Source: Knoellia flava TL1
GTDB lineage: Bacteria; Actinomycetota; Actinomycetes; Actinomycetales; Dermatophilaceae
Length of the DNA: 64,000 bases
Assembly: GCF_000768675.1 (NCBI RefSeq)
Contig: NZ_AVPI01000011.1
Span: 1-64,000, forward strand
Direction of reading: 5' to 3'
Made by a program: the position numbers and the translations under genes. Numbering within the stretch: the first letter of the stretch is position 1; each line of letters starts with the position of its first letter. Shown here piece by piece: positions 1,154 to 63,000 of this stretch. Below the pieces are notes generated by a model. That model had not been told where the DNA came from. It was given only the letters and a program-made list of their open reading frames with translations, and made no database searches.

Positions 1154-1743
1154 CGCGACGTCATGTGTGCCTGCCACGCCGCATACGTGGGCAGGATGCC
1201 GGAGCGGCGCGCCTCGTCGAGTGTGGGCGCTGCCTCGTCCTTGGCCGACAGCGTGAACTCGAGGTCGGCGGGCAGGTCGAGACCCACGGCTGGATCGAGG
1301 GGATGTATGCCGTGCTCGCCCGTGGGGTTGTAGGTCGCCGTGCAGAGATACATCGCGGTGGTGTCGTCCTCGAGCGCGCGGAAGGCATGCCCGAGGCCCT
1401 CGCTGATCCACACCGCGCGCCGATCCACGGTGTCGAGGAGGACGGAGTCCCAGTGCCCGAACGTCGGCGAGCCCACGCGCACGTCGACGACGTAGTCGAC
1501 CAGCGAACCCGTGAGCGCCGTGACGTACTTGCCCTGACCCGGCGGGATGTCGGCGAAGTGGATGCCGCGCAGCGTCCCCGCCGACGAGACCGACACATTG
1601 GTCTGGACGATGTCGGGCCGGTGACCGAGTTGCTGGGCGAGCAGGTCCCCCCGGAAGGATTCGAGGAAGCGCCCTCGCTCGTCGGCGATCTGTCGCGGCG
1701 TCACGACGAACGCCCCCTCGACGGTGAGTGGCTCGATGAGCAT
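1144..1743 (-). CDS. rmlC: dTDP-4-dehydrorhamnose 3,5-epimerase
   Basis: Third step of dTDP-L-rhamnose synthesis: epimerises C3 and C5 of dTDP-4-keto-6-deoxyglucose. The 199-residue cupin has the LRGIHF motif with the catalytic His at 62, FxESF near the N-terminus (FLESF) and the conserved TYNPTGEHGIHPLD region. Its ATG shares one base with the rmlA stop (TGATG), so the two are translationally coupled. It lies with rmlA on the minus strand, divergent from rmlB-rmlD. The 3' end overlaps the upstream carboxypeptidase gene by 10 bp in convergent orientation. Confidence 0.95.
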   Translation of the reverse strand: MLIEPLTVEGAFVVTPRQIADERGRFLESFRGDLLAQQLGHRPDIVQTNVSVSSAGTLRGIHFADIPPGQGKYVTALTGSLVDYVVDVRVGSPTFGHWDSVLLDTVDRRAVWISEGLGHAFRALEDDTTAMYLCTATYNPTGEHGIHPLDPAVGLDLPADLEFTLSAKDEAAPTLDEARRSGILPTYAAWQAHMTSRQS

Positions 1744-2621
1744 CAGGGCAGCTCCTTGCCCTGCTCGAGGCAGGCGTGTATGTAGTCGCCGTAGCCGCTC
1801 TTGACGAGCGCGTTCCCGAGGCCGGCGAATTGGTGGTCATCGATCCACCCCGCTCGCCAAGCGATCTCCTCCACACACCCGATCTTCGTGCCCTGCCGGG
1901 CCTCGATGACCGCGACGAAATGGCTTGCATCCATCAGGCCTTGGAATGTCCCCGTGTCGAACCAGGCGGTTCCGCGCGGCAGGACCGTGACCGCGAGGTC
2001 CCCACGCCGCAGGTAGGCGTCGTTGACGGCGGTGATCTCGAGCTCCCCGCGCTCGCTCGGTGTGAGGTTGCGGGCGATCTCGACGACGTCGTTGTCATAG
2101 AAGTAGAGCCCGGGGACCGCATAGCTCGACTTCGGCTCCGTGGGCTTCTCCTCGATCGAGAGCACCTTGCCGTCCGGGTCGAACTCCACGACGCCGTATG
2201 CCGTGGGGTTGCGCACATGGTGCGCGAAGACGTGCCCGCCGCGCACGTGAGTGAGGTTCTCGAGTGAGCGCCCGAGTCCCGTCCCGTAGAAGATGTTGTC
2301 CCCCAGCACGAGGGCGACCGGATCCGACCCGATGAAGTCGGCCCCGATGATGAACGCCTGGGCCAGACCGTCGGGACGTGGCTGCACGGCATACGAGATT
2401 GCGATCCCCCACTCCGCGCCGTCGCCGAGCAGTCTCTCGAACTGCTCGAGGTCCTGAGGTGCCGTGATGATGAGGACCTCGCGGATGCCCGCCATCATCA
2501 GCGTGGAGAGCGGGTAGTAGATCATCGGCTTGTCGTAGACCGGCATGAGCTGCTTGCTGATGGCCCGGGTGATCGGGTGAAGCCGCGTCCCCGAGCCCCC
2601 CGCCAAGATGATCCCCTTCAT
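1743..2621 (-). CDS. rmlA: glucose-1-phosphate thymidylyltransferase
   Basis: First step of dTDP-rhamnose synthesis: glucose-1-phosphate + dTTP to dTDP-glucose. The start at 2621 gives [16 protein letters not shown], the canonical nucleotidyltransferase signature at residue 1, and a normal length of 292 residues. The frame is open further upstream but lacks family similarity. A TAGGGT box lies 7 bases before the ATG, so the mRNA may be leaderless. The [14 protein letters not shown] and EKP motifs are present. It is one base-overlap upstream of rmlC. Confidence 0.96.
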
Positions 2622-2628
2622 GGGCGCC

Positions 2629-2634
2629 ACCCTA
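2629..2634 (-). promoter_or_regulatory. -10 box TAGGGT of rmlA
   Basis: Seven bases before the rmlA ATG, implying a transcript starting at or next to the start codon. It faces the rmlB box across 38 bp. Confidence 0.55.
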
Positions 2635-2672
2635 GCGAGTCGGGCGTGAGACCCGGTCGCCCACATCATCAG

Positions 2673-2678
2673 TAGCCT
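2673..2678 (+). promoter_or_regulatory. -10 box TAGCCT of rmlB
   Basis: Seven bases before the rmlB GTG; no Shine-Dalgarno sequence is visible between box and start, as expected for a leaderless mRNA. Confidence 0.55.
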
Positions 2679-2685
2679 TGCCTGC

Positions 2686-59900: not shown

Positions 59901-59906
59901 ACTTCG

Positions 59907-59912
59907 ACGGTA
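59907..59912 (-). promoter_or_regulatory. -10 box TACCGT of the winged-helix regulator gene
   Basis: Six bases before the GTG at 59900. Confidence 0.5.
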
Positions 59913-59978
59913 TCCACGCCGGTCACCGCGCACATGTGACCAAAGTCCACCTCCGCGCCCGACGGCTGCCGGGCGCGA

Positions 59979-60021
59979 GACACGGTGTGGGCCACCTGCC
60001 TGCGGGGGCCCACACCGTGTC
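59979..60021 (-). terminator. hairpin downstream of the multicopper oxidase gene
   Basis: Perfect 15-bp arms GACACGGTGTGGGCC (59979-59993) and its complement (60007-60021), 14 bases after the oxidase stop on the minus strand. A second GC-rich hairpin (CGCGCCCG/CGGGCGCG, about 59954-59977) follows. Together they probably terminate the oxidase transcript. Confidence 0.72.
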
Positions 60022-60035
60022 GTCGCCCGTGACGC

Positions 60036-63000
60036 TCAGGCTCCGGGGACCAGCCTCACCGCCGACCAGTTCGTACCGACAGCGTTGACCGAGCCGACCC
60101 GGAAGTACCACGCCTGCCGGGCGAGGTTGCCGGTCTGGAAGTTGACGACACCCGCGGCGGTCGTCCCTGAGCCCGCGACCGTGGCGAAGTCGGCCGTCGC
60201 GCTCCACTGGATGCGGTATCCGGTCTCACCGAGGACGTCGTCCCAGGCCACCGCCACCTGCTCGTTGCGGCCCTGCCGGGTCGCGACGGCCGACCTGATG
60301 GTCGTCGCCGGGGCGAGCGCCCCGATGCTCACGTTCGCGGTGTTGGACGGCGCCGAGACACCGGCCACGTTGGTCGCACGCACCCGGTAGTCGTAGCTCG
60401 TCGACCCGCTGACGGTGGTGTCCGTGAACGTCGTCGTGCCCGTGCTGGTGCGAGCGGGCGCCACCGCCACCGTACTGAAGGTCGTCGTGCCCGCCACGGC
60501 ACGCTCGATGACGAACCCGGTCTCCGTGGTGGCGTTGTCACGCCAGGTGAGGGCCACCTGGGGCCCGGGCTGCGCCGTCGCCGTGAGGGCCGTCGGCGCC
60601 GCAGGAGTCACCGCTGGCGCGTTGACGTTGAGCGAGTTCGACGTCGAGGTGACGGTCATGCTCGGGAAGGCTCCTCCGTAGCCCACGGTGTTCTCCGCGA
60701 CGATCCGGTAGGTGTATGCCGTCGTGCCGTTCGAGGTGCTGTCGGTGAAGGTGCGGACGCGATGGTCGTTCGGCGCGTTGATGGGCGAGGCGACCGTCCC
60801 CACCGTCGTCCACGTCGAGCCGTTGGTGGTGCGCTGGACGAGGAAGGCCGTCTCCGTGATGGAGTTGTCGTTCCAGGTCAGCGTGACGACCTTCTTGCCG
60901 GTGGCCGGCAGCGTCGCCGTGAGCAGCTGCGGCTTGACCGGCGGCAGAGCCACCGACTCGGGCCGCATCATGTCCATCTCCTCGTGGCTGAGGATGTGGC
61001 AGTGGTAGACGTACTCCCACCCGAAGTTGACGAGCTCGTTGGTGACCGGGTCGAGCGTCGGGACACCCTGCGGGTCCATGCTGTTGAAGCCCGCGGTCGA
61101 ACCGATCGGCATCATCGGGTTGAGCGGCCGGATTGCGTTGGGCACCTCGAAGGGGACCTTCGGGATGATCGGGCGCAGGGCGACGACGGTGTCCTGCAGC
61201 GGGTTCATCCGCACGGTGTCCTTCCAGCCCAGCTCGTTGGGCTCGGTGAGCGAGACGTTGTTGTCCCACGCCACCCGGTTGAGCACCTGCACGTCGTAGA
61301 GGTGGAAGTGGATCGGGTGCGTGTCCACGCCGTTGTGGGTGAAGCGCCAGATCTGGGTCCCGTCCTTCGCACTGCCGATGGGCGTCACCTTGACGTCACC
61401 GTCGGGCAGCCCGCCGGCGCTCAGCCTCACCTCGGCCACCGGGAGGTTGGTGCCGTCGATGAGCTCGGTCGCCGGGTTGACGTAGGGGTAGAGCGTGACG
61501 TTCTGCTGCCCGGGCGCCGGAGGCTGCGCCTCGAGTCCCAGGTTGGCCTGCATGCGGCCGTACTCGTCGAACGTCGTCGCGTTCATCTCGTCGTGGATCG
61601 CCTTGGGCTCGAGGTCCATGACCATCTTCGAGTTCGGCGCCTTGAGGGTGTTGAAGCCGAACTGTCCGGTGTTGTTGACCCGCACGATGCCGTCACAGCT
61701 GTTTGTCGTGCCACCGGGGACGTTGCAGTCGCTCGCCGCCGGGAAGTTCGTCCCGTAGGACGAGTCGTAGGCGTCCTGCCCGACGATGATCGGGTTCTGC
61801 CCGGACTCGAAGACACCGCTGCCGTCGGCCTTGTGCGCGAAGGCCGCGTTGAGCTTCGAGACGTCGTATGCCGGCTGAGCGGCCGTGTCGGCGATCGTCA
61901 CCTTCATGATCGTGCGCGTGTTGGGCCCGTAGCCCGGCAGGATCGACGGTGCGCCGGCAGGGCTGAGGTCGGGGGCGCCGGTGTAGTAGTCGTACTGCGG
62001 GACGCGCGCCGGGAAGGCAGCCGGGGCGTCGTTGTAGAGGATGAGGGTCTTGCCCGCGAACTTCGAGAAGTCCACGACGGTGTCGGCCCGCTCCGCCGGC
62101 GCGAGGAGCAGCGAGTGCTTGTCGACGTTGCCGACGTCGAAGCGGGTCGGGTCGGTGATCCAGGTCGTCGGCTGCTGTCCGTCGACGACAGCCGGCTTGG
62201 GCAGGAAGCCGCCCTCGGTGCCGATCTGCACCCAGTCCGGTCCTGCGGCGTTGTTGTTGGCGTCGACCGGCGTGGGTGACACGGTCGGGTCGGTCTGGGC
62301 AGCCGCGAGCTCGGCCGGTTTGAGGGCGACCTCGGTCGTCCCGTCACCCTGGGCCGCGTCCGCGACGTACCACTGGAAGTTGAAGAACCGGTCGTTGGCG
62401 GCGTTGAGCATCCGCAGCCGGTAGGCCTTGGGCTCAAGGGTCACCTTCGGGTAGGCGACACCGTTGACCACCGGGGTGTCGTTGAACTGCTCCATGCCGG
62501 CCGAGATGTTCGGGGTGCCCGGGATGAGCTCGGGCTCGCAGAAGGGGTCGGTCTGGTACCGCCAGGTCGACGGGATGTCGAGCTTGCAGCTGCTGTCGTA
62601 GTAGGGGTTTTTGATCGTCCCGTACTTGGTGCCCGTCGCGGGCGGCCAGAACCACGGCCCGTACATCCACCGGCCGTAGGCACTCATGCCGGACGGGTCA
62701 CCGGGGTTCTGTGCCGGCATGTAGACGTGGTGGTACCAGAAGTCCCCGGTGCGGCCCCAGCGGCGCTTGTCCCACGTCGGGTCCTGGCCGTAGCGTCTCA
62801 CCGCACCGCTCGCGTCCTTGGTGTCGTAGAGCTGCTCGTCCGAGGGCACGAAGGTGCGGTCCTGGACCACGAGCGGGATGGTGTCAGCGGCCGGGGGGAT
62901 GACGCCGTCGGCGATGAGCTTCTTCTCGGTGTCGTCCGCGATCGCGTACCCGGCGGCCTCACCGGCATACACGTTGAGACGGGTGATGCCCCACGAGTGG

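Follow-up and report, generated by a model that had tools for sequence, protein, structure and literature searches.

A dense, strand-balanced octamer in Knoellia and related actinobacteria as a probable DNA uptake sequence with lineage-specific dialects

The 64-kb stretch of Knoellia flava TL1 DNA analysed here (contig NZ_AVPI01000011.1, positions 1 to 64,000; hereafter the window) carries the seven-base word GTATGCC far more often than expected, which raises the question of what the word does. An initial annotation had counted about 49 copies, put the excess at sevenfold and proposed a DNA uptake or genome-architecture signal. The window holds exactly 49 copies on both strands (25 plus, 24 minus), compared with a mean of 2.07 and a maximum of 6 in 100 dinucleotide-shuffled versions. 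The over-representation stands, but sevenfold was too low a figure, as the third-order Markov expectation of 4.8 makes the excess tenfold. As described earlier, most GTATG pentamers in the window (49 of 59) continue to the full word. The heptamer, however, is not the unit: the next base is G in all 49 copies, and the real unit is therefore the octamer GTATGCCG, with an order-3 expectation of 2.3. GTATGCCG is non-palindromic, differing from its own reverse complement, whereas the cyanobacterial HIP1-type word is palindromic. The ninth base is preferentially T and rarely A (60% and 1% of 252 copies in the source genome, 49% and 2% of 290 in a second Knoellia genome, G007), a preference that is weaker in genomes G047 and G101; with it counted in, the favoured form is GTATGCCGT. 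Bias in the flanks past 8-9 bases is slight, with no longer conserved element around GTATGCCG and no fixed CTG; the octamer itself has no CTG core. One-mismatch variants lie near or below expectation under a second-order model, except for CTATGCCG, GGATGCCG and GTAGGCCG at about twofold.

The excess extends to the whole source genome (G000; 3.56 Mb, 94 contigs). GTATGCC occurs there 1,281 + 1,296 times, compared with 258 + 273 for its reversed control, and GTATGCCG occurs 1,268 + 1,273 = 2,541 times, about once per 1.4 kb, compared with 44 + 50 = 94 for the reversed word. From these and the following sequence patterns we propose that GTATGCCG is probably a DNA uptake sequence of a naturally transformable actinobacterial lineage, comprising Knoellia and its family, and that it occurs in dialects. 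We favour this reading because the word is dense, strand-neutral, blind to codons, paired in hairpins, conserved, lineage-specific and dialect-forming.

Selection on the DNA was analysed in 351 kb of the source genome, 83.6% of which was called coding by a simple gene caller. Of 252 GTATGCCG copies, 189 are genic, 60 intergenic and 3 at edges; the intergenic share is an upper bound because the caller misses some genes (e.g. at 16-21.8 kb of the window). A codon null, in which synonymous codons were shuffled across called genes so that proteins and codon usage were preserved, gave 7.8 expected copies (s.d. 2.8, 100 runs, maximum 14), making the 189 observed a 24-fold enrichment. The corresponding numbers in G007 are 216 observed and 16.5 expected (6 runs). 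GTACGCCG, a synonymous alternative to GTATGCCG, is depleted under the same null in both genomes (14 versus 51.2 in G000, 9 versus 36.8 in G007), while GGATGCCG stands at 54 versus 47.7 in G000. Two of the six codon registers dominate the coding copies (88 sense, 67 antisense), and the rare codon TAT is used at 88 of 102 G-TAY-GCCG positions, compared with 88 of 1,675 elsewhere. Copies are also conserved: in seven pairwise comparisons of the source comEC region with other Knoellia species (79-84% identity), a summed 44 of 56 aligned words are kept, compared with 19-30% of all 8-mers. The earlier claim that selection acts on the DNA rather than the protein, at the price of rare codons, is thus upheld by the shuffle and by TAT usage, and the copies are conserved among relatives. 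A strong position-in-gene bias was ruled out; there is only a mild tilt, antisense copies becoming more frequent and sense copies less frequent as the gene end is approached.

In the genomes sampled, the enrichment is confined to one family. NCBI places Knoellia in Intrasporangiaceae; the GTDB name of the family is Dermatophilaceae. All nine Knoellia genomes, the source included, carry 1,971-3,277 copies of GTATGCCG. Among 25 named genomes, the seven Knoellia-type records (one filed as Janibacter sp. HTCC2649) span the same 1,971-3,277, Knoellia koreensis has 3,986, six Pedococcus/Phycicoccus genomes 625-2,551, two Humibacillus genomes 2,908 and 3,225, Leekyejoonella 1,581, Nostocoides sp. Soil756 only 29, and seven more distant Actinobacteria 34-221. 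In a family set of 186 genomes from 53 genera (Knoellia, Pedococcus, Humibacillus and others), 106 are word-rich, defined as at least 400 copies (in all of them at least 2.5 times the reversed control), and the remaining 80 have 7-394, so that the word is nearly absent from some close relatives. Beyond the family, an order sample of 396 genomes included 34 family members, and the other 362 (19 families) all had at most 180 copies, the top one with a control of 195. In a phylum sample of 246 genomes, the three family members had 1,251-2,541 copies; the highest count among the other 243 was 386, in a 7.5-Mb genome with a control of 176. Among the matches listed by a search of open-licence papers, none described an actinobacterial word of this kind, and of the titles listed for the bare word none concerned DNA uptake by bacteria.

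Candidate replacement words were obtained from de novo counts in 40-80 kb of each of 20 word-poor genomes, tested against the codon null and then counted in all 186. GGATGCCG reaches 3,619-4,480 copies in five genomes (G025, G026, G042, G043 and G178) where GTATGCCG has only 40-361; in four of them GTATGCCG nonetheless exceeds its reversed control 5- to 10-fold, possibly as a residue. Two genomes, G044 and G045, carry both words (GGATGCCG 2,195 and 2,099; GTATGCCG 1,217 and 1,189), and the remaining family genomes have 241-1,336 copies of GGATGCCG. Under the codon null, GGATGCCG in G178 stands at 41 versus 7.3. GTACGCCG exceeds 1,000 copies in 11 of 186 genomes (maximum 4,185), one of which, G083, is without GTATGCCG although two sisters in its genus carry it; in G083, GTACGCCG is 2-fold over the codon null and GTACGGCG is higher (41 versus 10.8). 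Counts of GTATGCCG and GTACGCCG in 63 genomes correlate negatively (Spearman -0.54, uncorrected for kinship). Every one of the 19 genomes of genera g27 (16) and g35 (3) holds 797-1,939 copies of an unrelated, strand-balanced word, CGAAGGGGG, of which the other 167 have 11-80. CGAAGGGG stands at 33 versus 5.8 under the codon null in G090 and at 20 versus 5.9 in G060. Separately, two genomes of genus g46 (G153 and G158) hold 1,210 and 1,336 copies of GGATGCCG, compared with 614-949 in its other ten genomes, perhaps an early or fading dialect.

These labels were placed on a quick maximum-likelihood ComEC tree of 63 family genomes and 3 outgroups, with Shimodaira-Hasegawa-like approximate likelihood-ratio support only. 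The word labels cluster on it, taking 13 changes compared with a shuffled mean of 27.9 (0 of 200 shuffles as low). GGATGCCG takes two changes and would most simply have arisen twice; g27 and g35 sit in a clade of five rows, all without GTATGCCG. The tree takes 15 changes when GTACGCCG is scored as a further state and the outgroups are omitted. Judged from this tree, the dialects follow phylogeny, the GTACGCCG part being less sure.

In Knoellia the two strands are used equally (95/93 on source contig C1; 74/63 and 75/78 in two 200-kb stretches of G007), and replichore polarity was not seen, each 200-kb Knoellia stretch being balanced by itself. Counts elsewhere are 46/59 in G047 and 62/75 in G101, with individual 20-kb stretches as skewed as 3/12. 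Orientation relative to the neighbouring copy is far from random. Adjacent copies are opposite rather than alike in 180/68 cases in G000 and 197/91 in G007, with 0 of 5,000 orientation shuffles as high for either. This excess arises because same-orientation pairs are depleted: within 1 kb there are 33 versus about 90 expected in G000 (107 opposite pairs) and 55 versus about 105 in G007 (131 opposite). The same-orientation exclusion reaches about 1.5 kb in both Knoellia genomes, opposite copies not being excluded, and hints at directional DNA entry. An orientation test of CGAAGGGG and GTACGCCG (60 kb each, 24-47 copies) gave no effect.

At the shortest distances, below 100 bp, opposite pairs outnumber same-orientation pairs by 16 to 2 in G000 and 25 to 3 in G007. 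Eleven pairs (under 60-66 bp) were folded, with a T run behind none; six lie outside called genes and five inside, and several give strong hairpins between genes (Table 1). Because pairs also occur inside called genes of the window (48960-48981 and 7605-7655), the hairpin pairs are not only terminators. The inverted hairpin pairs described in the initial annotation are real.

The strongest competing explanation is a Chi-like signal: an octamer, active in one orientation, at which a nuclease-helicase of the RecBCD or AdnAB type would stop degrading DNA and turn to repair, and which selection would keep recurring at intervals in each direction. GTATGCCG shares with Chi the character of an octamer in excess across the core genome, the source genome has low-GC, word-poor islands (described below), and an exclusion limited to same-orientation copies suits reading in one direction. 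In passages of PMC8022716, Chi motifs differ among lineages and some candidates are unpolarised; the same passages give E. coli Chi as leading-strand polarised and present about once per 5 kb, whereas GTATGCCG is strand-balanced in Knoellia and occurs about once per 1.4 kb. Its lack of polarity in Knoellia and its several-fold closer spacing thus argue against a Chi-like site, as do the inverted hairpin pairs, which are typical of uptake sequences, and the presence of several words, one of them unrelated, within one family. On balance we regard this explanation as unlikely.

A chromosome-architecture signal, such as a nucleoid-protein site or a segregation or translocase guide, would account for the genome-wide spread at roughly one copy per 1.4 kb. 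KOPS-type translocase guides are strongly replichore-polarised, whereas GTATGCCG is strand-balanced in the Knoellia stretches, and this absence of strand bias weakens the replication-architecture and segregation readings that the initial annotation had kept as alternatives; a replichore signal was ruled out on the same ground. At two G007 sites orientation is independent of position, some close relatives nearly lack the word and have others instead, and neither same-orientation exclusion nor hairpin pairing would be expected, so that an architectural role appears improbable. Still less probable is a methylation or restriction-modification target, which the short, strict and non-palindromic form of the word would suit; restriction selects for the loss of sites and fails to explain a 24-fold enrichment over the codon null. 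Finally, an origin in codon usage, dipeptides, mutation bias or a dispersed repeat, for which the two favoured codon registers might speak, has next to no probability, since synonymous shuffling yields 7.8 copies rather than 189, the favoured TAT codon is rare elsewhere and flanking sequence outside the 8-9 bases shows little bias, which rules out the codon or dipeptide artefact and the dispersed repeat.

The uptake-sequence reading also agrees with the gene content of the family. In the source genome, comEA (SLBB plus helix-hairpin-helix) adjoins comEC, and a Tad/Flp locus holds TadA-type T2SSE, RcpC/CpaB, T2SSF and TadE/G-like genes. ComEC was found in 180 of 186 family genomes, the six others being 58-81% complete or, in two cases, split into 570 and 760 contigs; gain or loss of ComEC was accordingly ruled out as a correlate of the word. 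comEA lies beside comEC in 63 of 66 loci, two of the three misses being on short contig ends, and DprA was found in 14 of 14 genomes tried. ComEA, ComEC, DprA and the Tad locus, the kinds of gene that the initial annotation had pointed to, are thus in place. The type IVa pilus ATPase PilT (TIGR01420) passes the cut-off in only two of 186 genomes (G085 and G180), the source genome not among them, and type IVa pili were ruled out as a correlate. Given this rarity, the Tad/Flp pilus is the likely filament. Separately, G182 has a type IVa PilT below the cut-off, in two contig-end pieces.

In the scheme that we envisage, a surface receptor (probably ComEA or a minor pilin of the Tad/Flp system) would have a preference for word-bearing DNA, ComEA and ComEC would import one strand, and DprA and RecA would recombine it. 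Word-bearing fragments would then enter more often, and the resulting biased recombination would spread and maintain copies across the core genome, in genes at a rare-codon cost and between genes as hairpin pairs. Drift of receptor specificity may have produced the dialects GTATGCCG, GGATGCCG and probably GTACGCCG, with one clade using the unrelated CGAAGGGGG. Entry may run in one direction from the word, as the exclusion over about 1.5 kb suggests. The more specific picture, of a Gram-positive uptake system working through Tad/Flp rather than type IVa pili, with dialect switching or whole-word replacement and entry of fixed polarity in which each orientation serves its own direction, is a tentative extension of the genomic data to which we give somewhat less than even weight.

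Several observations weigh against the uptake-sequence reading or parts of it. Genomes carrying none of the four words have ComEC and DprA just as the others do. The competence genes thus fail to tell word-rich and word-poor genomes apart, and the receptor is to be sought elsewhere. A scan for ComEA and ComEC columns that track GGATGCCG gave nothing clear and no receptor, and the near absence of PilT means that the neisserial ComP route is not applicable. At the thresholds used, 46 of 186 genomes qualify for none of the four words; in seven of these GTATGCCG is modestly over-represented (100-394 copies, 2.5 times control or more). GTACGCCG exceeds the codon null only 3- to 5-fold in G089, G023, G010 and G087, other GTACGNCG forms are elevated alongside it, and some word-poor genomes show comparable over-representation of unrelated words (e.g. 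GTAGACC, 27 versus 5.3 in G016); for these reasons GTACGCCG is a less certain dialect. The same-orientation exclusion is weak in Humibacillus-type G047 (64 opposite, 40 same; equalled in 21 of 2,000 shuffles), as it is for GGATGCCG in G178 (36/18; 32 of 2,000), and absent in G101 (70/66; 792 of 2,000); it would also suit an orientation-dependent recombination signal. Word density shows no significant correlation with GC in G007 (Spearman 0.09, p 0.44). Even so, the uptake signal proposed in the initial annotation fits best with the combination of density, strand balance, codon-independent selection, hairpin pairs, dialects, source-genome islands and genes, within the bounds of a case built from sequence and of competence genes that are common to word-rich and word-poor genomes.

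Uptake sequences were called unique to Neisseria and Pasteurellaceae in 2013, in the text available from PMC3630211, where the neisserial DNA uptake sequence (DUS) is described as abundant on either strand, within genes and between them, with terminator-like inverted pairs and dialects that follow phylogeny. GTATGCCG is likewise two-stranded, genic and intergenic, hairpin-paired and dialect-forming. It differs in belonging to another phylum with another envelope, in having no CTG core, in the rarity of type IVa PilT and in its orientation-specific exclusion in Knoellia. DUS12, ATGCCGTCTGAA in an excerpt of PMC2346458, has ATGCCGT in common with the favoured Knoellia form GTATGCCGT, which we regard as coincidence or convergence because GTATGCCG does not have the CTG core of neisserial DUS (as given in PMC3630211). 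The uptake signal sequence (USS) of Pasteurellaceae is similar in its spacing near 1 kb (PMC7811141, in part) and in the divergence of words within one family (PMC2346458, in part). In H. influenzae, sections of PMC1939737 report uptake independent of site orientation, whereas the Knoellia exclusion is orientation-specific. Within the same phylum, Micrococcus luteus has competence with Flp/Tad pili, ComEA and ComEC, the same kinds of gene as in Knoellia, and the portions of PMC6370729 at hand mention no uptake word; the other families of the order, as sampled, show no enrichment of GTATGCCG.

If correct, this would be a third, independent case of uptake sequences, in another phylum, and would suggest that Knoellia-type bacteria undergo natural transformation. 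The several words of one family, with its many sequenced species, would permit comparative tests of word origin, drift and replacement. The orientation exclusion would open the direction of DNA entry to study from genomes, and adding the word to donor DNA might ease transformation of laboratory strains of these genera.

Table 1. Copies of GTATGCCG in the window and the long word-free stretch. All 49 copies rest on the motif count and Markov model, paired copies also on folding.
Feature	Position	Strand	Folding energy
GTATGCCG copy	1305..1312	+	
GTATGCCG copy	2196..2203	+	
GTATGCCG copy	2387..2394	-	
GTATGCCG copy	4025..4032	+	
GTATGCCG copy	4706..4713	+	
GTATGCCG copy	5403..5410	-	
GTATGCCG copy, inverted pair with 7648, inside called gene	7605..7612	-	
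GTATGCCG copy, inverted-pair partner of 7605	7648..7655	+	
GTATGCCG copy	8559..8566	+	
GTATGCCG copy	8861..8868	-	
Word-free 9.8 kb, GC 0.659; surface-polysaccharide genes from 10,287	8869..18701		
GTATGCCG copy	18702..18709	+	
GTATGCCG copy	19912..19919	-	
GTATGCCG copy	22335..22342	-	
GTATGCCG copy	23284..23291	+	
GTATGCCG copy	24018..24025	-	
GTATGCCG copy, left hairpin arm between convergent called genes	26288..26295	+	-40.2 kcal/mol
GTATGCCG copy, right arm of 26288 hairpin	26319..26326	-	
GTATGCCG copy	26701..26708	+	
GTATGCCG copy, left arm, intergenic hairpin	29033..29040	-	-22.0 kcal/mol
GTATGCCG copy, right arm of 29033 hairpin	29051..29058	+	
GTATGCCG copy, left arm, intergenic hairpin	32176..32183	+	-43.1 kcal/mol
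GTATGCCG copy, right arm of 32176 hairpin	32224..32231	-	
GTATGCCG copy	33977..33984	+	
GTATGCCG copy	35719..35726	-	
GTATGCCG copy	36376..36383	+	
GTATGCCG copy	37286..37293	-	
GTATGCCG copy	38275..38282	-	
GTATGCCG copy	38524..38531	+	
GTATGCCG copy	40460..40467	-	
GTATGCCG copy	42111..42118	+	
GTATGCCG copy	42699..42706	-	
GTATGCCG copy	44897..44904	+	
GTATGCCG copy	46139..46146	-	
GTATGCCG copy	47363..47370	-	
GTATGCCG copy	47619..47626	+	
GTATGCCG copy, inverted pair with 48974, inside called gene	48960..48967	-	
GTATGCCG copy, inverted pair with 48960, inside called gene	48974..48981	+	
GTATGCCG copy	50206..50213	-	
GTATGCCG copy	51938..51945	+	
GTATGCCG copy	52395..52402	-	
GTATGCCG copy	53922..53929	+	
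GTATGCCG copy	54129..54136	-	
GTATGCCG copy	54434..54441	+	
GTATGCCG copy	56258..56265	+	
GTATGCCG copy	56688..56695	-	
GTATGCCG copy	57438..57445	-	
GTATGCCG copy	60714..60721	+	
GTATGCCG copy	61866..61873	+	
GTATGCCG copy	62963..62970	-	

Within the window the copies are unevenly distributed, with none in 8,869-18,701 (Table 1). The long word-free stretches of the source genome are all low in GC, this one and two on contig C1, 30281-49622 (0.652) and 49631-57738 (0.670), which a single GTATGCCG copy separates. Word density rises with GC in G000 (Spearman 0.36, p 0.003). The three gaps above 5.5 kb in G007 have GC 0.685, 0.663 and 0.643, the first not being low for a genome at 0.679. In the window, a low-GC, word-poor surface-polysaccharide cluster occupies 10287-21797, with genes for a phosphatase, Wzz/kinase, dehydratase, DegT aminotransferase, sugar transferase, glycosyltransferases and a flippase-like protein. 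Ten open reading frames were scanned in the C1 island (30281-57738); one encodes an IS-type integrase-core transposase, and others match SHOCT, DUF6994 and OmpA. The same island also holds a 1,475-aa frame with weak beta-propeller similarity.

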